From positions 1 through 8,617 of the forward strand of contig JASHRY010000341.1 in the NCBI GenBank assembly GCA_030037105.1: a DNA stretch of 8,617 nt. Direction: 5' to 3'. A model generated the notes under the pieces. That model was given only the letters and a program-made list of their open reading frames with translations. It searched no databases and was not told where the DNA came from. The DNA is from Xanthobacteraceae bacterium (GTDB lineage Bacteria > Pseudomonadota > Alphaproteobacteria > Rhizobiales > Xanthobacteraceae). Each line of letters opens with the position of its first letter. Positions within the stretch are counted from its first letter, which is position 1. The position numbers and the translations under genes were made by a program. Positions 1-8,617 of this stretch are shown piece after piece.

Positions 1-86
1 CCGGATCGCCGCGAAGCGGCGAGACCGGAATCCATAGGCTCTCCCGCCCGGTCGTTCCCGCATATCGCTTCGCTCATGCGGGCTAC
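1..86. repeat. Noncoding leader with small palindromes
   Basis: No convincing coding frame is visible. Bases 6-22 form a perfect hairpin (TCGCCGC, loop GAA, GCGGCGA). A second imperfect inverted pair (CGCAT ... ATGCG) lies at about 59-79. From memory, strings such as 'GGAATCCATA' and 'CTCATGCGGGCTAC' occur in intergenic repeats of Bradyrhizobium-type genomes; this could not be checked by search. The stretch may be host-type intergenic DNA rather than phage sequence. Confidence 0.4.
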
Positions 87-100
87 TTGCTTTCTATTGA

Positions 101-148
101 CGTCATCCTGAGGCGCTCGCCCGCAGGGCGAGCCTCGACGGATGATGA
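101..148. repeat. Palindromic intergenic repeat (CGTCATCCTGAGG type)
   Basis: The segment begins CGTCATCCTGAGG and ends CCTCGACGGATGATG. Its centre is a perfect hairpin: GCTCGCCC (115-122), loop GCA, GGGCGAGC (126-133). The outer arms CATCCTGAGG and CCTCGACGGATG are imperfectly complementary, so the whole unit is a near-palindrome of about 45 bases. I recall very similar elements scattered between genes in Bradyrhizobiaceae, which is recollection and not a database match. It abuts the 5' end of the pseudogene, and the earliest possible start (TTG at 87) would translate straight through it. That is a reason to prefer the later ATG at 156. Confidence 0.55.
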
Positions 149-155
149 TGAGCGG

Positions 156-544
156 ATGCGCCAGCGCCAAGCGGAGATCGCCTCCATACGCCGTGAACTG
201 GAAGAGATCGCGCGCGACGTTCACAAGCTGTGCCGCGAATGGCCGTTGCTGGTCCGGGCGGAGTTGCGCAAGGCCGGCTACGATCCCGATGAGCCGCGCG
301 TGCTGGCCGGCTATCCCGACAGCGGGCAATGGGCGACTGAAGATAACGGCAAATACGAGGATACGACCAACGCGACTGTTGTCATGGCGGCCCGCAGCAA
401 GCAATCTGAAGCAGAATGCGATGCGCAGTTGGCGGCGGATGGCATTATCTGCAATGCACTGCGCTCGCGGTCATGTTGGGCTTAAGCTATGGAACGCTAT
501 CCGCTTGCTTGAGTGGCCGGCAGATTCCGCCGTTAAGCTTCTAG
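156..544 (+). pseudogene. Broken small gene with GQW motif and cysteine-rich C-terminus
   Basis: The open frame from ATG 156 gives 109 residues and stops at TAA 483-485. It starts with a charged, probably helical segment (RQAEIASIRRELEEIARDV) and has the motif AGYPDSGQW at residues 51-59. This resembles the 'AGxPDGGQW' signature I recall from many rhizobial hypothetical and prophage-linked proteins. A cysteine-containing C-terminal part follows. Coding continues past the stop. Frame 0 reads AMERYP, then frame 2 reads CLSGRQIPPLSF and ends at TAG 542-544. Reading TAA 483 as CAA, and restoring one G between 500 and 501, gives one continuous protein of 129 residues ending CWAQAMERYAACLSGR... and then QIPPLSF. 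The gene therefore carries one nonsense change and one single-base deletion. There is no clear ribosome site before ATG 156; TTG 87 is an unlikely alternative because it reads through a repeat. The function is unknown. Confidence 0.7.
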
Positions 545-552
545 GGGTCGTC

Positions 553-885
553 GTGATTATTGCAAGCCGATCATTGAAACTACGTCAGAATGAAGGCGAT
601 ACTGATATCGCCGTGCGAATCCTGGCGCCGCAACCCAGTCAGAGCCACTGGTCGTGCGATTACGAGATCGACTGGCCTGAGGGAACGCGTAAAGGGACGG
701 CGCACGGATTTGATTCTGTGCAGGCGTTGCTGTTTGCGTTAGAGATGATCGGCGCGGAAATCTACACCAGCGATTATCATAAATCGCAGAAGTTGATGTG
801 GAGTGAGCCGGGCGAAGGATATGGATTTCCAGTGCCCGGGACGATCAGAGACCTCCTGGTCGGCGACGACGCGAAATTCCTTTGA
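553..885 (+). CDS. Small protein of unknown function (DUF6968-like)
   Basis: This encodes 110 residues from GTG 553. AGGGG at 543-547 is a good ribosome site with 5-nt spacing, and it overlaps the restored stop of the upstream pseudogene (542-544), so the two were probably one operon. The frame is open further upstream to 142, but that part is a shadow of the pseudogene. The protein looks soluble, with no signal peptide or membrane segment. Notable stretches are WSCDYEIDWPEGTRKGTAHG (residues 33-52), FDSVQALLFALEMIGAEIY (53-71) and a C-terminal GYGFPVPGTIRDLLVGDD (89-106). The tryptophan/cysteine core followed by a 'DSVQALLFALEMIG' helix matches my memory of the family DUF6968, a short bacterial domain without assigned function; that name is unverified. 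It is not a recognised tail component and is probably accessory or host sequence. Repeats begin 15 bases after its stop. Confidence 0.75.
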   Translation: MIIASRSLKLRQNEGDTDIAVRILAPQPSQSHWSCDYEIDWPEGTRKGTAHGFDSVQALLFALEMIGAEIYTSDYHKSQKLMWSEPGEGYGFPVPGTIRDLLVGDDAKFL

Positions 886-900
886 AGCCAGTTTATCGTG

Positions 901-957
901 CCTTCTCCCCTTGCGGGAGAGGGCGGCCGCGAGCAAAGCGAGCGGCCGGGTGAGGGG
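901..957 (+). repeat. Dispersed repeat, copy A
   Basis: The copy begins CCTTCTCCCCTTGCGGGAGA and ends CCGGGTGAGGGG. It contains two hairpins: TCTCCC-CTTGC-GGGAGA at its left end, and CGGCCGC (924-930) pairing with GCGGCCG (942-948). The same unit occurs inverted at 1579-1636, and its left half recurs inverted at 1003-1025. I recall this 'CCTTCTCCCCTTGCGGGAGAAGG' type from intergenic regions of alphaproteobacterial chromosomes. It lies 15 bases after the 553-885 gene and could act as a transcription-attenuating hairpin, although there is no T-run. Confidence 0.7.
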
Positions 958-1002
958 TGCGACGCCGAACCCACCTATTCTTGTTGTTGAACCGCCGCGT
1001 GG

Positions 1003-1025
1003 CCCTCTCCCGCAAGGGGGAGAGA
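1003..1025 (-). repeat. Dispersed repeat, half copy B (inverted relative to A)
   Basis: The sequence CCCTCTCCCGCAAGGGGGAG is the reverse complement of the left half of copy A with one extra base. Together, A and B could fold the transcript of 901-1025 into one long stem. The rest of the 886-1121 gap (958-1002 and 1026-1121) holds no gene or clear regulatory site, apart from an AGAGAGA ribosome site at about 1110-1116 that serves the next gene. Confidence 0.6.
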
Positions 1026-1121
1026 GCACTGTAATGCGCTTGCTGAGGCCTGAGATGTCGGCGTTGCTGTCCTCCCGAACGCGAAGCGCACGCCAATGAG
1101 CAGCTTTTAGAGAGAATCCGC

Positions 1122-1568
1122 ATGACCGCCGTCAGTCGCGAGCAGATATCGGCCGCGTTCTTCGCCCTTGTCGCCGGCGCGGCTGGACTCACGGCGACGA
1201 GCCGGCGCTTCGTGCATTGGGACCAGGTCAATGAGACGCAGATGCCGTTCCTCACCATGCTCAGGACCGGCGAAGTACGCGGCCGGCAGGGCGAGGGGCT
1301 GCCGACGCTCACCATCAACGCACATGTCTTTATATATATGTCCGCTGGCATGGACCCGGAGGACGTGCCCGACGCCGCCATGAACGCGATGCTCGATGCG
1401 GTCGATGCGGCGGTGGCGCCGTCCGGCGCCGACGCCATCGCCGGCACCAAGCAGACGCTCGGCGGGCTCGTTTCGCACTGCTATCCGCTCGGGCCGGTTT
1501 TCATCGATACCGGCGACATCGACGGCAAGGCCGTTGCCGCCATTCCGTTTCAGATTCTCGTTCCGTAG
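1122..1568 (+). CDS. Probable phage tail terminator protein
   Basis: This encodes 148 residues from ATG 1122, with AGAGAGA (about 1110-1116) as a plausible ribosome site. It is soluble, alpha/beta in character, with no membrane segment. It opens with a helix (REQISAAFFALVAGA), then has WDQVNETQMPFLTML (residues 33-47), a strand region near FIYM, a helix around DAAMNAMLDAVDAAV, and a C-terminal TLGGLVSHCYPLGPVF before a final strand ending FQILVP. This pattern (a central 'P-x-L', 'lldavdaal' helix and 'TLGG.V..c' segment) fits the tail-terminator class that caps the tail tube and joins it to the head. The call rests mainly on position: in siphophages the terminator gene sits just before the major tail protein gene, as here. 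The usual head-completion genes are absent upstream; repeats and accessory genes lie there instead. The call is functional and by context, and no family name is certain. Confidence 0.72.
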   Translation: MTAVSREQISAAFFALVAGAAGLTATSRRFVHWDQVNETQMPFLTMLRTGEVRGRQGEGLPTLTINAHVFIYMSAGMDPEDVPDAAMNAMLDAVDAAVAPSGADAIAGTKQTLGGLVSHCYPLGPVFIDTGDIDGKAVAAIPFQILVP

Positions 1569-1578
1569 GAGCGTTGAG

Positions 1579-1636
1579 CCCCTCACCCGGCTCGCGGCCG
1601 ATGCCGCTTGCCACCCTCTCCCGCAAGGGGAGAAGG
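1579..1636 (-). repeat. Dispersed repeat, copy C (inverted relative to A)
   Basis: The segment starts CCCCTCACCCGGCTCGCGGC and ends CTCTCCCGCAAGGGGAGAAGG. It is the reverse complement of copy A, with a diverged middle. It fills most of the 115-base gap between the tail terminator and major tail genes. A and C together bracket the terminator gene as an inverted pair. Right of the repeat, 1671-1676 (AGGAGA) is the ribosome site of the next gene. Confidence 0.7.
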
Positions 1637-1683
1637 TGCATTCGCGATTTCCAGCTTTCAAACGATCATCAGGAGACCCGCCC

Positions 1684-2424
1684 ATGACCCAATTCGCCTT
1701 CGGTTCCGGCACGCTGATCGGCAAACGCACCGACATAACCGGCACGCCGCCGTGCCTGCTGGGCACGCTCGACACCGTCTCGCTCGACTTCGACCGCAAG
1801 ATCGAGACTCTGCTCGGGCAGTACGCCGTTCCGGTCGCGGCCGGCGGCGGCGAGTTCAAGATCACCGGCAAGGCGAAGTTTGCGCGGCTGCAGGCGACGC
1901 AGATCAACAATCTGTTCCTGGGCCAAACGCTCACGGCGGACAGCATGCTGGAGATGACCACTGGAGAGACCGGCACCGTCGCCTCCGGCGCGGTCACCGT
2001 CGCCAACAGCGCGACCTTCGTCGAGGATTTCGGCGTGTTCTATGCCGCCTCCGGCGCGCAGCTTGCGCCGGTCGCCTCCTCGCCGGCGCAGGGCCAGTAC
2101 AGCGTGGCGAGCGGCGTCTACACCTTCAACTCCGCCGACAACGGCGCTGCGGTGCTGATCTATTACAGCTACACCGTCGCTGCGGGCAACAACATCAGCC
2201 TGGCGAACCAGCTCGCCGGCCCGCTGCCGCTGTTCGAAGTCTCGCTAAAGGAGACGTTCAACTATTTCGGCGCCAGCAAGGATTTATTGGTGAAGCTCAA
2301 CGCCTGTGTCTCGTCGAAGCTGTCGCTGCCGTTCTCCAATCAGAAATTCGCCATAGCCGAATTCGATTTCCAGGCGATCGCCGATTCCTCGAACAATATC
2401 GGCACCATCAGCCTGAGCGAATAA
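1684..2424 (+). CDS. Phage major tail (tube) protein
   Basis: This encodes 246 residues from ATG 1684, with a strong AGGAGA site seven bases upstream. The frame is open back to 1396, but that part is a shadow of the terminator gene. The protein polymerises into the tail tube. It is beta-rich, with small residues prevailing and no signal or membrane segment. The N-terminus (GTLIGKRTDITGTPPCLLGT) and the early GEFKITGKAKFARLQATQIN segment (about residues 57-76) resemble tube proteins of lambda/HK97-type siphophages. A middle part (about 95-165) with repeated VASGAVTVANSATF and YSVASGVYTFNSADNGAAVL elements looks like an inserted beta-sandwich. The C-terminus returns to the tube fold (FEVSLKETFNYFGASKDLLV ... 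FQAIADSSNNIGTISLSE). Its size and its position after the terminator and before the chaperone agree with this role. Its stop is only seven bases from the stop of the convergent nucleotidyltransferase gene, with no visible terminator. Confidence 0.85.
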   Translation: MTQFAFGSGTLIGKRTDITGTPPCLLGTLDTVSLDFDRKIETLLGQYAVPVAAGGGEFKITGKAKFARLQATQINNLFLGQTLTADSMLEMTTGETGTVASGAVTVANSATFVEDFGVFYAASGAQLAPVASSPAQGQYSVASGVYTFNSADNGAAVLIYYSYTVAAGNNISLANQLAGPLPLFEVSLKETFNYFGASKDLLVKLNACVSSKLSLPFSNQKFAIAEFDFQAIADSSNNIGTISLSE

Positions 2425-2431
2425 GGCTCCC

Positions 2432-3457
2432 TCATTTTTTGAAAAGCGAAGCGGCCTCGTTAAACACCGTCTTCGGGAGCATTCGCAATTGTTCCGGAGC
2501 ATACGGCAGATGCGGCATGTACTCGGCGACCAGACGGCCAACGGCCTGAGCCTGCGCTTCGTCGCGTTTGCGCTTGAGGTGCGCGCGATCTTGGCGTTTC
2601 GAAAGCCAGAGTTTGTGAGCAGCCCAAACACGCGGATCGGTCGCTACGATGCGGCAGGGCTCGCCCCTTTCGTCGACGGCAATGGCTTCGAAAGAGGGTG
2701 CGCTTTCATGCCAGTCCAATCCTTCCATTTCGGTGGCTAGAAGGTCATCGGCTTCGTTGCCGACTCCCAAGCGTTCCGGCTGCCACGGCGGATCGCGTGA
2801 CGGCTTGATCAGATCGACGAGGTATCCGTCATCGTTTTCGGCTCGGAATGTGTAGGCTGAACGCTTGAAACTGCGATCTATCTTCTGCAGCAAATGCAAT
2901 AACGAAAGGTGCGTTACATCTTCGCTTGCAACGAACATCAACCTCCTGCGGGCATGGAACAGCAAGTCGATGTCTTCGGTGGTCGTTAGACCCGGATCGA
3001 TGCGAACGCCCGCGGCTGCCTCGTAAGCATAGATCGCGTTTGTGCCAAGCACGCGTATGCCCGACCCGAGCATCCCGACGTGATCCAGTCCCCGTATAAT
3101 CTTGGCGCCGATCAGTGGAACGCGTCCCAGACCGAGGGCGCGATTGATGGCTGACTGTCGGGCGAGTATCATTTTTAGATTTTTGAGGCGGGCCTGCGCC
3201 TCCGACCGGCCGCGCTCATACTCGGTCTTAATCGCCTCGGTCTTTTTCGCGCGTGGACCCAAGGACGTTTGTCGCCGGATTCCGGATTTGTCGTAGTGGC
3301 TGCGGACTAGATAGTCGCGCTCGCCATCCTTCATCCAAACCATGGAACCGCGGTACCCCTTGGCCCGTTCGTCAGCCTCGCGATAGGCGGCGTAGCGTTG
3401 CTGGGTGTTGACCATCTCCTTGCGCTGGTCGCTATTTAATTCTTGAAATTCAATCAC
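2432..3457 (-). CDS. Nucleotidyltransferase-family cargo protein (COG5397/NTP_transf_8-like)
   Basis: This encodes 341 residues from GTG 3457, read against the tail genes. TTG 3526 would add 23 residues, but family members as I recall them begin near (M)IEFQ.LNxDQR, and a promoter-like pair fits inside the extra part. The order seen is an N-terminal MVNTQQRYAAYREAD helix, a GSMVW element, SLGPRAKKTE, a long charged helix, RALGLGRVP, then the catalytic-type core. The core has VLGTNAIYAYEAAAGV followed by TEDIDLL (Asp162 and Asp164) and, later, YLVDLI (Asp215). That makes three carboxylates arranged as in polymerase-beta-type nucleotidyltransferases. The C-terminal part has ATDPRVWAAHKLWLSKRQDR and a basic KRKRDEAQAQAV helix. 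The family is known as a putative nucleotidyltransferase with unproven substrate. It sits where morons insert, between two late tail genes. One hand-counted 60-base stretch near its 5' end is 37% GC and one near its 3' end is 53%, against about 67% for a stretch of the tape measure gene, which suggests separate acquisition. A defence or lysogenic-conversion role is inference only. Confidence 0.82.
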   Translation of the reverse strand: MIEFQELNSDQRKEMVNTQQRYAAYREADERAKGYRGSMVWMKDGERDYLVRSHYDKSGIRRQTSLGPRAKKTEAIKTEYERGRSEAQARLKNLKMILARQSAINRALGLGRVPLIGAKIIRGLDHVGMLGSGIRVLGTNAIYAYEAAAGVRIDPGLTTTEDIDLLFHARRRLMFVASEDVTHLSLLHLLQKIDRSFKRSAYTFRAENDDGYLVDLIKPSRDPPWQPERLGVGNEADDLLATEMEGLDWHESAPSFEAIAVDERGEPCRIVATDPRVWAAHKLWLSKRQDRAHLKRKRDEAQAQAVGRLVAEYMPHLPYAPEQLRMLPKTVFNEAASLFKK

Positions 3458-3497
3458 TTCAACAGGCTCATCGATTTTTTCCGTTGTCTGTTGAAGA

Positions 3498-3526
3498 AGT
3501 TTAGCAAGCTGTATCAATACCTTCAA
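3498..3526 (-). promoter_or_regulatory. Candidate promoter for the nucleotidyltransferase gene
   Basis: On the minus strand, TTGAAG (3521-3526) and TAAACT (3498-3503) are separated by exactly 17 bases. Each matches four of six positions of the sigma-70 consensus, in a locally AT-rich stretch. It would start transcription about 35 bases before GTG 3457, which supports that start codon over TTG 3526. Matches this weak are common by chance. Confidence 0.3.
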
Positions 3527-3599
3527 CAGTTACAGTCGTCCCGGACTTTAACTGATGAAGCCATTGATAGCTAAGCTCTTTTGCGAGGGAGATCATGAC

Positions 3600-4025
3600 G
3601 TGACGCTTGAATCCGACGACAGCCTCGACCTTTCCGACGCTCGGCAGGTCCGCCTCGGCGGCCGCGACTGGTTCGTCGCGCCGTTGTCGTTGCGGCAGAT
3701 CCTCGCCATCGCCGATCATGTGCCGAAACTGTCGGCAATCGCCGTCGACAACCTCGCCGGCGAGCGCCTCGCGCCGCTCGCCGAGGTGGTGTGGCACGGC
3801 TTGCGCCGCGCCCATCCGCGATTGACGCGGGATGAATTTTTCGACTTGCCGATCACCATCGCCGAGCTCGTCGCGGCCCTGCCAGTGGTGATCGAGCAGG
3901 CCGGCGGCCGGCGGGTGGACGGGGGCGACGGCGCGGCGGCGCAGGGGGCCGCGCCCGCGGGGGAACTCATGGCGGCGAGCGCTTCGATTGCGTCGATTGG
4001 CGCGCGCTCGTCGCCGAGCTCGTGA
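3600..4025 (+). CDS. Tail assembly chaperone, unshifted product (gpG-like)
   Basis: This encodes 141 residues from GTG 3600, preceded by GAGGGAG at 3585-3591 (8-nt spacing). ATG 3555 is in frame but lacks a ribosome site, and its extra 15 residues lie in the junction next to the inserted antisense gene. The protein begins with a short strand-rich part (VRLGGRDWFVAPLSLRQIL) and continues as helices (IAVDNLAGERLAPLAEVVWH, TRDEFFDLPITIAELVAALP). It ends in a low-complexity Gly/Ala-rich tail (from about residue 104) that is typical of the slippage zone of G/GT chaperone pairs. Such proteins bind the tape measure during tail assembly and are not in the virion. The position directly before the tape measure gene, and the overlapping second frame that continues as sensible protein, support the call. 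The last 19 residues after the slip point (MAASASIASIGARSSPSS end) are low-information. Confidence 0.75.
   Translation: MTLESDDSLDLSDARQVRLGGRDWFVAPLSLRQILAIADHVPKLSAIAVDNLAGERLAPLAEVVWHGLRRAHPRLTRDEFFDLPITIAELVAALPVVIEQAGGRRVDGGDGAAAQGAAPAGELMAASASIASIGARSSPSS
3943..4015 (+). promoter_or_regulatory. Programmed -1 frameshift signal
   Basis: Three elements line up. AGGGGG (3943-3948) can pair with the 16S anti-Shine-Dalgarno with one G-U. After 10 bases comes the heptamer G GGG GAA (3959-3965), where the P-site glycine tRNA can move from GGG to GGG without mismatch. After a 5-base spacer comes a 12-bp stem, 3971-3982 with 4004-4015 (one G-U), closing a 21-base loop. This is the arrangement known from dnaX and lambda-type chaperones. 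The A-site codon GAA would re-pair imperfectly on GGA, so the heptamer is not a perfect X XXY YYZ. The G-run at 3944-3948 (G GGG GCC) is a second possible slip point. Confidence 0.65.
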
Positions 4026-4222
4026 TCAAACTGCACTGGACGCGCGAGCAGGTCCTCGATCAGATCGACATTCCCTTTCTCGAGGATTTGCATCGCGCCT
4101 GGGCGGATTTTCCGCCGCTGCGCCGCTTGGTCGCCGCCTATCTCGGCCACAAGCCGCGGCCGCGGCCGTCGCGGAACTATCAGGAGCTGCTCGCTATGTT
4201 CCCGGGCGGCACGATCAGGTAA
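3965..4222 (+). CDS. Tail assembly chaperone, -1 frame extension (gpT-like part of the GT fusion)
   Basis: In the -1 frame relative to the preceding gene, 85 codons run from about 3965 to TAA 4220-4222. Protein-like sequence starts well before any start codon: GGERFDCVDWRALVAELVIK, then LHWTREQVLDQIDIPFLEDL, HRAWADFPPLRRLVAAYLGH, and a Pro/Arg-rich end with NYQELLAMFPGG. This argues for entry by ribosomal frameshifting, giving a fusion of about 207 residues from GTG 3600. In siphophages the longer minor product recruits tube subunits onto the tape measure. GTG 4022 overlaps the TGA of the first frame (GTGA), so coupled reinitiation is a possible alternative, but it would lose the coherent segment upstream and has a poor ribosome site. 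The -1 frame is open from 3836. I cannot name a specific Pfam chaperone family with confidence. Confidence 0.75.
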   Translation, partial: THGGERFDCVDWRALVAELVIKLHWTREQVLDQIDIPFLEDLHRAWADFPPLRRLVAAYLGHKPRPRPSRNYQELLAMFPGGTIR

Positions 4223-4240
4223 GGCAATGAGGATCGCCGG

Positions 4241-5443
4241 ATGGCCGATGACAATGAGGTCGTGATCAGTTTCGGCGCCCAGACCGATGATGCGCTTGCG
4301 GGCATCGCCCAGGTCCGCGACGCGCTTTCCGGGCTGACCGCGCCGGTCCGCGGCCTCGGCGGCAGCCTTGGTCAATTGCGCGCCGTCTTCGGCGCCGCGC
4401 TGCCGGCCGGCCAGTTGTCGCAACTGGTCAAGGATTTCGGCGATCTCGGCACGCAAGCCCAGCGCAGCGCCCTCCAGGTGAAGGAGGTCGGCGCCGAAAT
4501 CAAGGTTTTGCGCGAGGGCCTAGCCGAGAAGAAAATCGTCTTCGACGCCGAGGCGAGCCAATTCCAGATTACGCAGAATCAGAAATTCGCGCTGCTCGAG
4601 GCGGAGACGCAAAAAGAGTACGAGGCCGAATTGGCCTTGCTGCAGCAGGAAGCGGCGCTCGGAAACCTGAGCGTGGCGCAAAGGCAAGGAGTGCTCGACA
4701 AGATCGCGGAGCTGGAACAGAAGCACCGCACCGACATGCTCAAGCTCGACGAGCAGGCGATCGCGCAGCAGCAGCAGCAATGGACGTCGGCGCTGAACAC
4801 GATCGAGGGGGCGTTCAATTCGCAGCTTCGCGGACTGCTCGCCGGCACGACGAGTTGGTCGCAGGCCTTCAAGCATATTCTCGGCGACATCATCATCAAG
4901 TTCATCGAGATGTGCGAGGAGATGGTGGTAAAGTGGGCGGCTGCGGAGCTTGCGCAGACGACCGCGACGACGACCGGCGCGGCGGCGCGCGCCGCGGCCG
5001 AGCAGACCGCGGCCGGCTCCGGCATTCTCGCCAACGCCGCCAGCGCCATGCGCGCGATCATGACCGACGCCGGGCAGGCTTTTGCCGGCGTGTTCGCTTT
5101 CCTGGCGCCAGTGATGGGGCCGGCGGCGGCCGGACCGGCGGCGGCGGCGCAGGCGACCGTGTGCGCGGCGGCGGTCTTCGAGACGGGCACCGATTACGTG
5201 GTGCGCGGCGGCCTCGCTTTGATCCATCCGGGCGAGACGATCGTGCCGGCGCGCGGCTCGGGGCCGTTCACCAGCGGCGGCATGGGGGCGCAGATCCACG
5301 CGCCGGTGAGCATCAGCGTTTCGGCGCTCGATTCGCAGAGCGTCGCGCGCTTCTTCAACGACAACTCGAAGCACATGATGCGCGCCATCAACGACGCGGT
5401 GAAGCGCGGCGCCCATCTCGGGCTGCGACGGTTACAATCATGA
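4241..5443 (+). CDS. Short phage tail tape measure protein
   Basis: This encodes 400 residues from ATG 4241, with GAGG at 4229-4232 (8-nt spacing). The N-terminus is soluble (VVISFGAQTDDALAGI). Residues about 75-180 are a charged, glutamine-rich probable coiled coil ending AIAQQQQQW. Next comes LNTIEGAFNSQLRGLLAGTT (185-204), a segment conserved in alphaproteobacterial tape measures, then a Thr/Ala-rich helical stretch and a hydrophobic part FAGVFAFLAPVMGPAAAGPA (281-300) that could insert in a membrane. The C-terminus has the recurrent motif YVVRGGLALIHPGETIVPA (319-337). Tape measures set tail length and exit at DNA ejection. Most are 600-1200 residues; at 400 this one is short, mainly through a reduced N-terminal and central part, so a short tail is expected. 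The reading frame is uninterrupted and both ends look complete. It follows the chaperone by 18 bases. Confidence 0.85.
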   Translation: MADDNEVVISFGAQTDDALAGIAQVRDALSGLTAPVRGLGGSLGQLRAVFGAALPAGQLSQLVKDFGDLGTQAQRSALQVKEVGAEIKVLREGLAEKKIVFDAEASQFQITQNQKFALLEAETQKEYEAELALLQQEAALGNLSVAQRQGVLDKIAELEQKHRTDMLKLDEQAIAQQQQQWTSALNTIEGAFNSQLRGLLAGTTSWSQAFKHILGDIIIKFIEMCEEMVVKWAAAELAQTTATTTGAAARAAAEQTAAGSGILANAASAMRAIMTDAGQAFAGVFAFLAPVMGPAAAGPAAAAQATVCAAAVFETGTDYVVRGGLALIHPGETIVPARGSGPFTSGGMGAQIHAPVSISVSALDSQSVARFFNDNSKHMMRAINDAVKRGAHLGLRRLQS

Positions 5444-5449
5444 CCGGCC

Positions 5450-7924
5450 ATGAGCTACATCAACGGCGTCAATCTCTTGCCATCGACCGGCGAATTCACC
5501 TACGACACGATTGCCTATCTCGGCCAGCGCGTCACGGAAACAAGCCTGGGCCCGGTCAATTGCTATGCATCGGACGGCGCTGGTTCGACCACTGATTATA
5601 CGATCGCGCTCAACGATCTGCAGGCGCAATTCCCCGGCTGCACGACGGTCGCGGTCGTCGTCTCGTGGTTTGTCAATTTGACCGACATTACCGCGTGCCA
5701 GATTTACCCGTCCACGACCTACATCAACGGCACTTTTCAGCAGGCGTCCGGCGGCGCGGATGTCTGGCGCTGCTCAAGCCTCACGCAATCGTCGCCCGGG
5801 CTTATCCCGATTCCGCAGGTCGGGGATGCTTTCATTTACGGCGGCACGCCGTCCGATCAATCGCTCGTGCGCTGCATCCGCGACCTGAAATCGCGCGGAC
5901 TGCGCGTCGTCTTCTATCCGTTCATCCTGATGACCACCACAGGCGAGCCATGGCGCGGGCGGATCACGTACAACGGCGCGGACATATCGAGCGCCGCGAC
6001 GACGGCAATCAATAATTTCTTGGGCAGCGCTGCGGTATCGGACTTCACCCAGGACACGACGAACCTGACTGTCGCCTATTCGGGATCGCCGACCGATTAC
6101 ACCTATCGGCGGATGATCCTGCACTATGCCAACTTGTGCTGCGTTGCCGGCGGCGTCGATCTTTTCCTGCTGGGCTCCGAGCTTCGCGGCATCGAGGTGA
6201 TCCGCGGGCCGGCATGGACGAAAGCGGGCACGGTCAGTGGCGGCGCCGCCACATGGGACTACCCGTTCGTCACGGGCTTGATCCAGCTCGCCGATGACGT
6301 GCGCAGCGTCTTTGACGCCGCAGGCCTGACGAAAGACTTGACGAACCTGCACAACCTCATCGCCTATTCGCCCGACTGGTCGGATTGGATGGGTTATCAG
6401 CATCCGGGCGAAAACGGCCAGTGGCCGCATCTCGATCAGCTTTACGCCCACGACAACATCGACCTCGTCTCGTTCGACAATTACCTGCCGTTGTCGGATT
6501 GGACGACGGGCGACGGCGGGCTCGATGCCCGGAATTGGCTTGCACCGGCGCCGAGCGGCGCGTGGCCGCCGCCGTCGACTACGTTCAGCGGCCTTGGTTT
6601 AAGCGGCCAGCCCACGATCTACAGCATTCCCTATTTGCAGGCGAACATCGAAGGCGGCGAGAAGTTCAACTGGTTTTATAACGACAGCACGAACGGCGGC
6701 CCTGGCCTCGACCCGAACGGCAGCGACCTCATCGTCTCGCTGCCCGAAGGTGATCGCTTATCGCAGTCACGAAACGCCTATGCGGCAAACCAGCAGATCC
6801 TCGCCAACAAGCAACTGCGCTGGTGGTGGAACAACCAACACTATGCGGTCTACGACACCGGGTCCGGCTGGCAACCGCAGGGCTCGCCGACCCAATGGCT
6901 GCCCAACTCAAAGTCGATCACGTTCGCCGAATACGGATTCCCGGCTTGCGACAAGGGGACCAATCAGCCGAACCTGTTCTACAGCCCGGCGTCGATCGAG
7001 AGCGGCACGCCGTTCTGGTCGATCTGGGACCCCAGTCAGAGTGCGGCAGGCGATTATTGGCCGCAACGCGACGATCTTCTTTATTTGCTCGCGTTGCAGG
7101 CGGTCTATGAATATTGGCAGAACAACAACGAGAGCGTCGGCGGCGTGGCGATGATCCAGCCGGCTTTCATGTCTGTCTGGAACTGGGACGCGCGGCCGTT
7201 CCCGACCTTTCCGCAGCTCGTTGATGTGTGGGGCGACACCGGCAACTGGCCGGCCGGCAATTGGCTGCAGGGCAAGGGACCGTTCGTCGCGCCGCCGGTG
7301 CCGGACGATCCACCCGCGCCGGGGCCATATTCGACGTTCCCGACCGTGCCGACGCGCGGCTGGTCGATGACGGTGTCGCCGATCTTCTCGACCGGGGCCG
7401 CACTGCATGTTTCCGGCAAAGAAGCTCGCATGGCAAAGTATGCAGCGCCGCTGTGGCGGGTCGAGCTTAACTACGATTTGCTGCGGATGGTTTCGCCGGA
7501 CACCGAGTTGCAGGCGATCATCGGCTTCTTCGAGCAGTGTCAGGGCGAGGACGCGCCGTTCTACTTCGAACCGGTGACGCTCTCCCCGGTTGACGGGCAG
7601 GCGATCGGCACCGGCGACGGTGCGGCCACGACCTTTCCATTTGTCGTGTCGATCGGCGACGCGATCATCTCACCGGCGAATATCGGCATGTCGCCGCACG
7701 TTTATCTCGATGGCGCGCTGCAAACGGGCGGCTTCACGGTGAATGCAATCCCGCTCGCTCCCACGGTGACCTTCGCGACGGCGCCGGCATCGGGCGTCGC
7801 GGTGTCAGCCGACTTCCATTGGTATTTTCTTTGCCGCTTCGACGATGACAGCGAAGACGTCGAGGAATTCATGGCCGAGCTCTACGCGCTGCAATCGCTA
7901 CGGCTGCGCACGGTGCGGCCGTGA
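5450..7924 (+). CDS. Tail-tip protein: GTA-type TIM barrel fused to distal-tail (DUF2460-like) domain
   Basis: This encodes 824 residues from ATG 5450, six bases after the tape measure stop and without a strong ribosome site, so translation is probably coupled. Residues about 50-610 match the glycoside-hydrolase-like GTA TIM-barrel family (PF13547, from recalled family features). Elements seen are VVSWFVNLTD (70-79), GGTPSDQSLV (131-140), VVFYPFILMTTTGEPWRGRI (153-172), LLGSELRGIE (240-249), LVSFDNYLPLSDW (339-351), SKSITFAEYGFPACDKGTNQ (487-506), and WNWDARPFPTFP (577-588). Glu244 and Glu494 sit where clan GH-A enzymes carry the acid/base and nucleophile, so cell-wall or glycan cleavage during entry is possible but unproven. 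A proline-rich linker (612-635) leads to a C-terminal domain (636-824) that aligns along its length with the next gene's product. In true GTAs the barrel is followed by a phage tail hub domain and is encoded last in the cluster. Here that hub part is missing and the gene comes right after the tape measure. Confidence 0.85.
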   Translation: MSYINGVNLLPSTGEFTYDTIAYLGQRVTETSLGPVNCYASDGAGSTTDYTIALNDLQAQFPGCTTVAVVVSWFVNLTDITACQIYPSTTYINGTFQQASGGADVWRCSSLTQSSPGLIPIPQVGDAFIYGGTPSDQSLVRCIRDLKSRGLRVVFYPFILMTTTGEPWRGRITYNGADISSAATTAINNFLGSAAVSDFTQDTTNLTVAYSGSPTDYTYRRMILHYANLCCVAGGVDLFLLGSELRGIEVIRGPAWTKAGTVSGGAATWDYPFVTGLIQLADDVRSVFDAAGLTKDLTNLHNLIAYSPDWSDWMGYQHPGENGQWPHLDQLYAHDNIDLVSFDNYLPLSDWTTGDGGLDARNWLAPAPSGAWPPPSTTFSGLGLSGQPTIYSIPYLQANIEGGEKFNWFYNDSTNGGPGLDPNGSDLIVSLPEGDRLSQSRNAYAANQQILANKQLRWWWNNQHYAVYDTGSGWQPQGSPTQWLPNSKSITFAEYGFPACDKGTNQPNLFYSPASIESGTPFWSIWDPSQSAAGDYWPQRDDLLYLLALQAVYEYWQNNNESVGGVAMIQPAFMSVWNWDARPFPTFPQLVDVWGDTGNWPAGNWLQGKGPFVAPPVPDDPPAPGPYSTFPTVPTRGWSMTVSPIFSTGAALHVSGKEARMAKYAAPLWRVELNYDLLRMVSPDTELQAIIGFFEQCQGEDAPFYFEPVTLSPVDGQAIGTGDGAATTFPFVVSIGDAIISPANIGMSPHVYLDGALQTGGFTVNAIPLAPTVTFATAPASGVAVSADFHWYFLCRFDDDSEDVEEFMAELYALQSLRLRTVRP

Positions 7925-8535
7925 CGACTCCACCCTCGCTGCCGACGCTCGCCGGCCTTGGCTGGTCGCGTCACAAGAAGCCCGGCTTCTCGACGCGCGT
8001 CGCCTCGCACGTGTCCGGCCGCGAGGTCCGCGTCGCGCTGATGGCCTATCCGCTGTACGAGTTCGAGGCGGTCTACAACGGGCTCACGTCGTCGGCAGCG
8101 CTGTTCGCCGGCCTCGGCGCATCAAGCCTGCAGACGCTGATGGGATTCTTCCTGCAACTGCAGGGGCAGTTCGGGACCTTCCTCTACGCGGACCCGGACG
8201 ACAATACCGTCAACGGCCAGGCGTTCGCGACCGGTGACGGCTCGACCGCGTCGTTTACGATCATGCGGTCGCTTGGCGGTTTTCTCGAACCCGTCGGCTG
8301 GGTGACGACGCTTTTGAACGTATATTTGAACGGCACCCGGCAGGCGAGCGGGTTCAGTCTGACAACGCCAAATACGCTGACGTTCACCGCGCCGCCCGGC
8401 TCGGGCGCCGTTGTGTCGGCCGACTTCTCCTACGCCTTCAACTGCCGCTTTCTCGACGATCAGATGGATTTCGAGGAGTTCATGTCGAACCTTTGGAAGC
8501 TCGACAGCATGAAGTTCCGCGGCGTCAAGTCATGA
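7921..8535 (+). CDS. Distal tail protein, DUF2460-like
   Basis: This encodes 204 residues from GTG 7921, whose GTGA overlaps the previous stop; the next in-frame ATG would cut off the conserved N-terminus. It probably forms the ring joining tail tube and tip (Dit role), as DUF2460 proteins do in GTAs. Landmarks are GWSRHKKPGFST (14-25), HVSGREVRVA (30-39), LQTLMGFFLQLQGQFGTFLY (70-89), GQAFATGDGSTASFT (99-113), VYLNGTRQASGF (134-145), LTFTAPPGSGAVVSADFSY (153-171), and CRFLDDQMDFEEFM (175-188). The same order occurs in the C-terminal domain of the upstream 824-residue protein (for example VSADF and CRF.DD..D.EEFM), so the two are paralogues lying in tandem. The stop overlaps the next start (ATGA). 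The DUF2460 name rests on pattern memory. Confidence 0.8.
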   Translation: MTTPPSLPTLAGLGWSRHKKPGFSTRVASHVSGREVRVALMAYPLYEFEAVYNGLTSSAALFAGLGASSLQTLMGFFLQLQGQFGTFLYADPDDNTVNGQAFATGDGSTASFTIMRSLGGFLEPVGWVTTLLNVYLNGTRQASGFSLTTPNTLTFTAPPGSGAVVSADFSYAFNCRFLDDQMDFEEFMSNLWKLDSMKFRGVKS

Positions 8536-8617
8536 AGCCGGCATCATCCGCGCTTGTCACCTATTTGAACGATGCCCGCGCCAATTCCGACGTGCCGCTC
8601 ATCATGGCCGACATCTT
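8532..8617 (+). CDS. Start of next tail gene, probably DUF2163 family (truncated by window end)
   Basis: From ATG 8532, overlapping the preceding stop as ATGA, 28 codons are visible before the window ends: MKPASSALVTYLNDARANSD, then VPLIMADI. An N-terminus of this form ('salv.yL..a......l..ad.ytf') and a place right after a DUF2460-type gene both match DUF2163 proteins, the next gene in the GTA order and in related prophages. Only the beginning can be seen, so the family call is tentative. The reading frame itself is well supported by the overlap and its coupling to the operon. Confidence 0.65.
   Translation, partial: MKPASSALVTYLNDARANSDVPLIMADI

Follow-up and report, generated by a model that had tools for sequence, protein, structure and literature searches.

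A GTA-type TIM barrel fused to a distal tail protein, with a free paralogue beside it, in a phage or prophage tail-tip region

Introduction

Why should the TIM barrel of a gene transfer agent (GTA) megatron be found on a distal tail protein (Dit), and why is that protein followed directly by a second Dit? The question is raised by 8,617 nucleotides from a Xanthobacteraceae bacterium (GenBank assembly GCA_030037105.1, contig JASHRY010000341.1, positions 1 to 8,617, forward strand), a whole stretch referred to here as the window. Homology of the predicted proteins shows the window to be the tail-tip region of a siphophage or prophage with a baseplate of the type found in R4C and in RcGTA, the gene transfer agent of Rhodobacter capsulatus. 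In it, an 824-residue protein joins a GTA-type barrel to a Dit domain (Dit1), and the next gene encodes a free Dit (Dit2). The best overall explanation, which we put at roughly 60%, is that the barrel forms an arm, putatively a glycosidase, displayed on a specialised Dit1, with Dit2 as the ordinary Dit.

The fusion protein and the free Dit

The tail-tip genes and domains of the window are as follows.

4241..5443, forward strand: tape measure protein, 400 aa, directly upstream of the fusion (phrog_2854, 1.7e-13)
5450..7924, forward strand: barrel-Dit1 fusion gene, encoding 824 aa from an ATG start
5456..7276, forward strand: GTA TIM barrel, residues 3-609, equivalent of the RcGTA megatron peripheral domain
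6179..6181, forward strand: E244 codon; candidate acid/base at the end of strand 4 of the barrel (E in 201/202 barrels)
6929..6931, forward strand: E494 codon; candidate nucleophile at the end of strand 7 of the barrel (E in 202/202 barrels)
7277..7348, forward strand: proline-rich linker, residues 610-633, from sequence
7349..7918, forward strand: fused distal-tail domain Dit1, residues 634-823 (PF09343, 5e-30)
7921..8535, forward strand: free distal-tail protein Dit2, 204 aa, GTG start (PF09343, 2.1e-40)
8532..8617, forward strand: baseplate hub gene, first 28 codons (MKPASSALVTYLN...), cut by the window end

The GTA TIM barrel family PF13547 is matched by fusion residues 217-588 over the whole profile (1-299 of 299; 2.6e-94, 316.4 bits, curated cut-off 27 bits), and the stretch N-terminal to this match is part of the same megatron segment (residues 3-609). 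Both Dits match PF09343 (DUF2460) at near full length, with 104.9 bits for the fused copy and 138.8 for the free copy (cut-off 30.4). They miss the cut-off of 136.65 for TIGR02217, the Rcc01695 Dit subfamily (32.3 and 29.6 bits), and the fusion, at 406.7 bits, misses that of 800 for NF048004, the GTA megatron family, of which the barrel part alone is matched. Aligned by BLASTP, Dit1 (the C-terminal 191 residues) and Dit2 are identical at 75/193 positions (39%, E 5e-42). All the landmarks that a first-pass annotation had listed as common to the two proteins lie within this alignment, in the order and at the coordinates it gave; its proposal of a duplicated Dit-like module, one copy of it fused to a GTA-type barrel just after the tape measure gene, agrees with the family matches and gene positions above.

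The fusion stop TGA (7922-7924) overlaps the GTG start of Dit2 (7921-7923) by four bases, and the hub ATG (8532) overlaps the Dit2 stop; this hub start is the same as that of the hub (PF09931 and PF09356) at a related locus, L005.

Predicted structures support a Dit fold for both copies, as the first-pass annotation had expected. The Dit2 model (mean pLDDT 78.7) has the R4C Dit 8gtc_G as its closest fold (E 1.8e-8). For the fusion model (mean pLDDT 70.0), the first Foldseek match is the R4C megatron and the second is 8gtc_G (E 9.5e-10), and fold searches find the anticipated TIM barrel in it. The RcGTA Dit, Rcc01695, likewise matches both window Dits by sequence and predicted fold, as 8gtc_G does.

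Recurrence of the fusion

A survey of 362 loci, merged into 283 groups where loci had common sequence, found the fusion in 96 locus groups, so that the pairing of PF13547 with a DUF2460-like domain recurs. A protein search (5.8 billion proteins; 7,995 candidates scored) returned 1,198 matches, of which the best 120, the window's own protein included, all carry PF13547 and 119 also carry PF09343. One listed homologue is from Methyloferula stellata. Relatives are encoded on 41 viral contigs and five genome contigs, the latter from metagenome-assembled genomes named as Xanthobacteraceae (two), Methylovirgula, Methylocapsa and an unplaced proteobacterium. Of 296 genomes sampled from one family, 174 match the fusion protein, and in at least five the fusion is present, whole or in part, at 78-85% identity; the remaining matches listed are mostly barrels in frames of ~1,300 aa (megatrons), with some free Dits only. 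Across 397 genomes of the order, 265 have PF13547, mostly in ~1,300-aa frames among the matches listed. None of the 68 matching INPHARED phage records, and none of the 13 matching plasmid records, covers 80% of the fusion.

Because the window is short, at 8,617 bases, the fusion might be thought an artefact of gene calling or assembly. Recurrence already refutes this: both domains occur together in nearly all of the best matches, on genome and viral contigs alike, and both parts are under purifying selection, so that we regard an artefact as having a negligible chance of being the explanation. The domain pair already appears in database names, e.g. 'GTA TIM-barrel-like domain/Conserved hypothetical protein 2217 (DUF2460)'. 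A literature search that left most subscription journals uncovered found no description of a barrel-Dit fusion or a two-Dit ring; the sources used here (PMC7296036, PMC10276861, PMC13420450, PMC8601537, PMC10783043, PMC11409702, PMC9032380) concern related systems.

The barrel and the megatron

The RcGTA megatron consists of iris (1-46), adhesin-like (47-229), peripheral (230-744), central (745-984) and fibre-binding (985-1304) domains (PMC7296036). Fusion residues 5-616 align to its residues 221-765, and since this span closely follows the peripheral domain, the window barrel is essentially that domain, taken as a unit. It is homologous to the peripheral domain of the RcGTA megatron Rcc01698 (6tba/6teh), but in the window it stands outside the megatron with a Dit after it.

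The rest of the megatron is accounted for in relatives. Three loci read gene by gene (L005, L013, L015) have the order tape measure, barrel-Dit1, Dit2, hub, NlpC/P60-like protein and barrel-less megatron; family matches on the proteins of L005, L013 and L022 identify the hub (PF09931 and PF09356), the peptidase and the barrel-less megatron (PF13550, PF23666 and the N-terminus of NF048004). Downstream sequence of at least 5,500 bases is available for 53 fusion groups, of which 52 encode a barrel-less megatron and none a barrel-bearing one; the other, L184, has neither, none of the searched modules having been found after its hub. In the relatives the adhesin-like, central and fibre-binding parts lie on a protein other than the barrel carrier. 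The median spacing between the N- and C-terminal parts of megatron open reading frames (ORFs) is 7 residues in 132 barrel-less ORFs and 547 in 126 barrel-bearing ones, in counts that were not deduplicated and include single-Dit relatives.

As the megatron of relatives persists downstream without a barrel, the barrel sits elsewhere and nothing has been replaced. This rules out a replacement of the megatron by the barrel-Dit protein, given that 52/53 groups with room for it keep a barrel-less megatron. The idea in the first-pass annotation that the Dit replaces a 'hub domain' normally following the barrel also fails: the parts in question, PF13550 and PF23666, persist in the separate megatron of relatives, and the hub is a different protein, which starts within the window. 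For the window, such a megatron would lie beyond its end. In trees, the barrel and the Dits fall outside the GTA and megatron clades, and many of the relatives are viral contigs.

Other carriers and loci without a barrel

A third carrier is gp40 of Rhodobacter phage RcMcDreamy (L049:5902-8946), in which a barrel precedes a hub-like C-terminus (PF09356) with 29% identity over 130 positions to the RcBaka hub; gp40 gave no match to PF09931, the hub attachment domain. A separate barrel-less PF13550 protein is encoded at L049:9447-11846. Twenty-three phage records contain the hub-like part (74-100% identity), each time in a protein annotated as a TIM-barrel protein; the gene neighbourhood was read in one of them. 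The gp40 cluster resembles the window in having the barrel outside the megatron and differs from it in the hub-like carrier and in having no second Dit in the stretch read. As the RcMcDreamy barrel nests among megatron barrels (SH-aLRT 96), its move was separate from that of barrel-Dit. The barrel is shown in this way to be a portable module, carried by the megatron, a hub-like protein or a Dit in different phage groups.

A Dit but no barrel was found in 31 locus groups, 22 of them with at least 3 kb upstream of the Dit. At the three of these loci that were read closely (L132, L133 and L135) a tape-measure-like gene, recognised from its start by eye comparison, lies directly upstream of a single Dit, and such loci indicate that the barrel-Dit1 gene is optional in this phage group. 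L133 (1403-4891, minus strand) and L135 (9839-13318), both one-Dit phages, encode barrel-less megatron-type proteins of ~1,160 aa with tail-family matches in the first ~720 residues only. A solo GTA barrel of ~714 aa was seen in four genomes (L119:6095-8236, L120, L121, L122), with no megatron, hub or Dit module within 12-15 kb; the L119 neighbourhood, the one that was read, looks chromosomal.

Two lineages of Dit

A separate Dit is present in 87 of the 91 fusion groups with at least 700 bases downstream. One locus search used the free Dit as its query and was biased; when only groups with a locus retrieved by the fusion itself (L001-L046) are counted, the proportion is 26/27, so this bias is not the cause of its frequency. 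A careful tree built on 54 chosen rows gathers the 17 fused Dits from two-Dit loci into one clade (96/89) with free and single Dits outside it, and GTA-type Dits form a separate clade (100/100). A quick tree of 161 rows, which carries long-branch warnings, unites 54 fused Dits (98) together with L176, labelled single but probably a truncated fusion, with just 34 bases upstream of it. Fused and free Dits are separate lineages.

An independent tandem duplication of Dit without a barrel was seen at L200 (5812-7270), where the first copy has short N-terminal repeats. Its two Dits are sisters (96/92) with no barrel in the 6 kb upstream, which rules out L200 as an intermediate. A similar N-terminal repeat is present on the single Dits of L223 and L224, the L223 Dit following a 350-aa protein without a Pfam match; nothing is drawn from them as a possible barrel-free ancestor of Dit1, as L223 stands beside Dit1 in the quick tree (99) and, with weak support, beside Dit2 in the careful one (88/45).

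In four chosen pairs, the barrel has a ratio of non-synonymous to synonymous substitution rates (dN/dS) of 0.115-0.171, Dit1 one of 0.209-0.255 and Dit2 one of 0.114-0.134: both Dit copies are maintained by purifying selection, Dit1 more loosely. The two copies have specialised. The central segment (positions 90-160 of the 198-position Dit profile) is missing from 18/85 complete fused Dits of two-Dit groups and from 0/87 complete free Dits, several of which have extra inserts of ~100 residues or more in it (L009, L022, L024, L037-L039, L043). This segment is taken as the candidate Dit insertion domain, for which a sugar-binding role has been proposed in RcGTA (PMC7296036). A barrel on the fused copy may make it dispensable. 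Free-lineage Dits of L022 (12653-13609), L039, L229 and L237 are enlarged by some 100 to 310 residues inserted at a single site, likely an adsorption hot spot; the sole Pfam match of the L022 Dit is DUF2460, and the L237 protein matches nothing in Pfam beyond barrel-type domains and DUF2460.

Such looseness could also mean that Dit1 is a remnant anchor which enters no ring and merely tethers the barrel to the tip. In the same four pairs dN is higher in Dit1 than in Dit2 by a factor of 1.7 to 2.3, the middle of Dit1 is often lost, and four groups have no Dit1 at all and bear the barrel on a Dit of the Dit2 type. Yet Dit1 is under purifying selection, its losses are confined to the middle, and it retains the domain ends and the SGxxxR motif of the N-terminal half, which Dit2 keeps as well; a mere tether seems to us quite improbable.

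Fusions without a separate Dit

Barrel-Dit occurs without a separate Dit in the available sequence of 4/91 groups: L035 (with L033, L227 and L228), L188, L229 and L230 (with L237). Stricter grouping gives 6/76, with L033 and L035 apart and L197 counted; in L197, to all appearance a fifth such group, the contig ends within the barrel. The Dits of these loci belong to the free lineage in both the quick tree (L035, L188, L197, L229, L237) and the careful one (L035, L188, L229, L237), and the barrels of L033, L035, L188, L229 and L237 nest in the fused-barrel clade near L039 and L193. In these loci a fusion-type linker (GPF..PP.PD; GPL in L237) leads into a Dit2-type start. These placements, some with weak supports, rule out ancestral fusions. 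We infer a series running from full Dit1 (the window) through Dit1 without its middle (L002, L028, L039, L193) to none, ending in deletion of Dit1, on trees of moderate support. The four groups resemble natural deletion experiments, and they rule out an obligatory free Dit.

The barrel as a putative glycosidase

A structure search with the predicted model assigns the barrel a GH113-type (beta/alpha)8 fold (GH113, glycoside hydrolase family 113). Against the GH113 beta-mannanases of clan GH-A (5ylh, 4cd7, 7dvj), it is 16-18% identical in alignments and has long extra loops; GH113 was reached by fold searches only, and PDB sequence searches did not reach it. With PF22612 (GH113, cut-off 27 bits) the window scores 23.6 bits, below the cut-off, and the relatives L035 (34.9) and L237 (31.6) score above it. 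In enzymes of clan GH-A, strands 4 and 7 each carry a catalytic glutamate at their end. In the model, with strands counted by eye, E244 follows strand 238-243 and E494 lies within strand 490-495; the 202 barrels scored for these residues span all carriers, and both glutamates are aligned with glutamates of 6tba. On this sequence and model evidence, the barrel is probably a GH113-like retaining glycosidase that would trim host-surface polysaccharide during adsorption.

The barrel could instead be a former enzyme that now serves as a sugar-binding, docking or structural domain at the tail tip. A 2026 preprint on RcGTA calls the exact function of the domain unknown, and a loop of it touches the tailspike (PMC13420450). 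Against this stand the GH113 fold, the candidate glutamates kept in 201/202 and 202/202 barrels on all carriers, and a dN/dS of 0.115-0.171, and we hold a non-enzymatic role to be somewhat unlikely.

Architecture of the tail tip

In RcGTA, the megatron and the hub are trimers and Dit is a hexamer, whose odd and even subunits are contacted differently by hub and megatron (PMC7296036). RcGTA and R4C each have a single hexamer-forming Dit, whereas the window encodes two paralogues, one with an N-terminal barrel. The evolved Dits of lactococcal and other Gram-positive phages resemble Dit1 in bearing an extra carbohydrate-related module. The extra modules of evolved Dits are binding modules in Dit loops. 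The window differs in having an enzyme-like barrel on the N-terminus, plus a second Dit.

The barrel is borne on the N-terminus of Dit1 rather than in the megatron, and Dit2, an ordinary Dit, is encoded by the translationally overlapping next gene. In published structures the N-terminus of the RcGTA Dit faces hub and megatron, which would place an N-terminal barrel at baseplate level, near its usual place. In the arrangement that we propose, Dit1 would most likely enter the Dit ring beside Dit2, perhaps alternating three and three, and an alternating ring would keep three barrels, as on the megatron trimer. A tentative extension, for which we would not claim even odds, is that a 3+3 Dit1/Dit2 hetero-hexamer makes the change from six-fold to three-fold symmetry by two gene products instead of two conformations and sets exactly three glycosidase arms, the mobile barrel having used megatron, hub and Dit as carriers.

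Two stacked rings, a standard Dit2 hexamer and a second hexamer of Dit1 with six barrels, would be a different solution. It would accord with Dit1 and Dit2 being distinct clades, with the groups that have barrel-Dit alone (4/91), which suggest that six barrels fit around one ring, and with the related tube-like proteins of RcGTA, which stack as separate rings (PMC7296036). An extra ring would, however, require new contact surfaces on both faces, and the odd/even Dit contacts of RcGTA fit an alternating ring as well (PMC7296036); we consider stacking unlikely.

Several points weigh against the display of an enzyme arm on Dit1 beside an ordinary Dit2. The fusion model is moderate, 215/824 residues having pLDDT <50. 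The four groups without a separate Dit mean that a Dit can carry a barrel without any need for a mixed ring; L035, L188, L229 and L230 can apparently build their Dit ring solely from barrel-bearing subunits, which suggests that six barrels can also be borne. The trees are not reliably rootable and barrel-less single-Dit relatives exist, so that the barrel may have moved from megatron to Dit or in reverse. For one GH113 clade no substrate was found despite conserved catalytic residues (PMC9032380), and conserved glutamates are therefore no proof of activity. Loop 591-599 of the RcGTA peripheral domain contacts the tailspike TspA (PMC13420450), which makes docking another possible role.

Neighbouring genes

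The remainder of the window holds the following genes.

142-885: ORF of 247 aa, residues 141-231 matching DUF6968 (PF22302, 4.2e-34)
1122-1568: 148-aa protein, phrog_8150 (function unassigned)
ending at 2424: protein matching phrog_8234 (function unassigned)
2432-3526, minus strand: nucleotidyltransferase PF12281
3555-4025 and 4022-4222: two small genes matching only families without assigned function

The L022 homologue of the protein ending at 2424 has a weak match to a tail tube model (E 0.0039). The two small genes might, at a guess from their position, be tail-assembly chaperones. The nucleotidyltransferase gene opposes the tail genes around it and is likely a cargo gene, with no PADLOC match; the tail genes of L135 are also interrupted by an opposite-strand gene, a different one (2647-3354), with a PADLOC mad2 match (1.6e-15). 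A scan of the window for RNA found no family above its gathering score and no tRNA.

Significance

The exact function of the peripheral barrel of the RcGTA megatron has remained unknown, according to the 2026 preprint (PMC13420450). The presence of the same barrel on three partners, with the putative catalytic residues kept throughout, argues for a self-contained enzyme arm, and the barrel-Dit fusion offers a protein in which this idea can be tested. The Dit1/Dit2 pair lends itself to testing cleanly how a six-fold tail is joined to a three-fold baseplate. In this group of phages of soil alphaproteobacteria, a barrel carried on a Dit suggests a portable tool for passing host-surface sugars.

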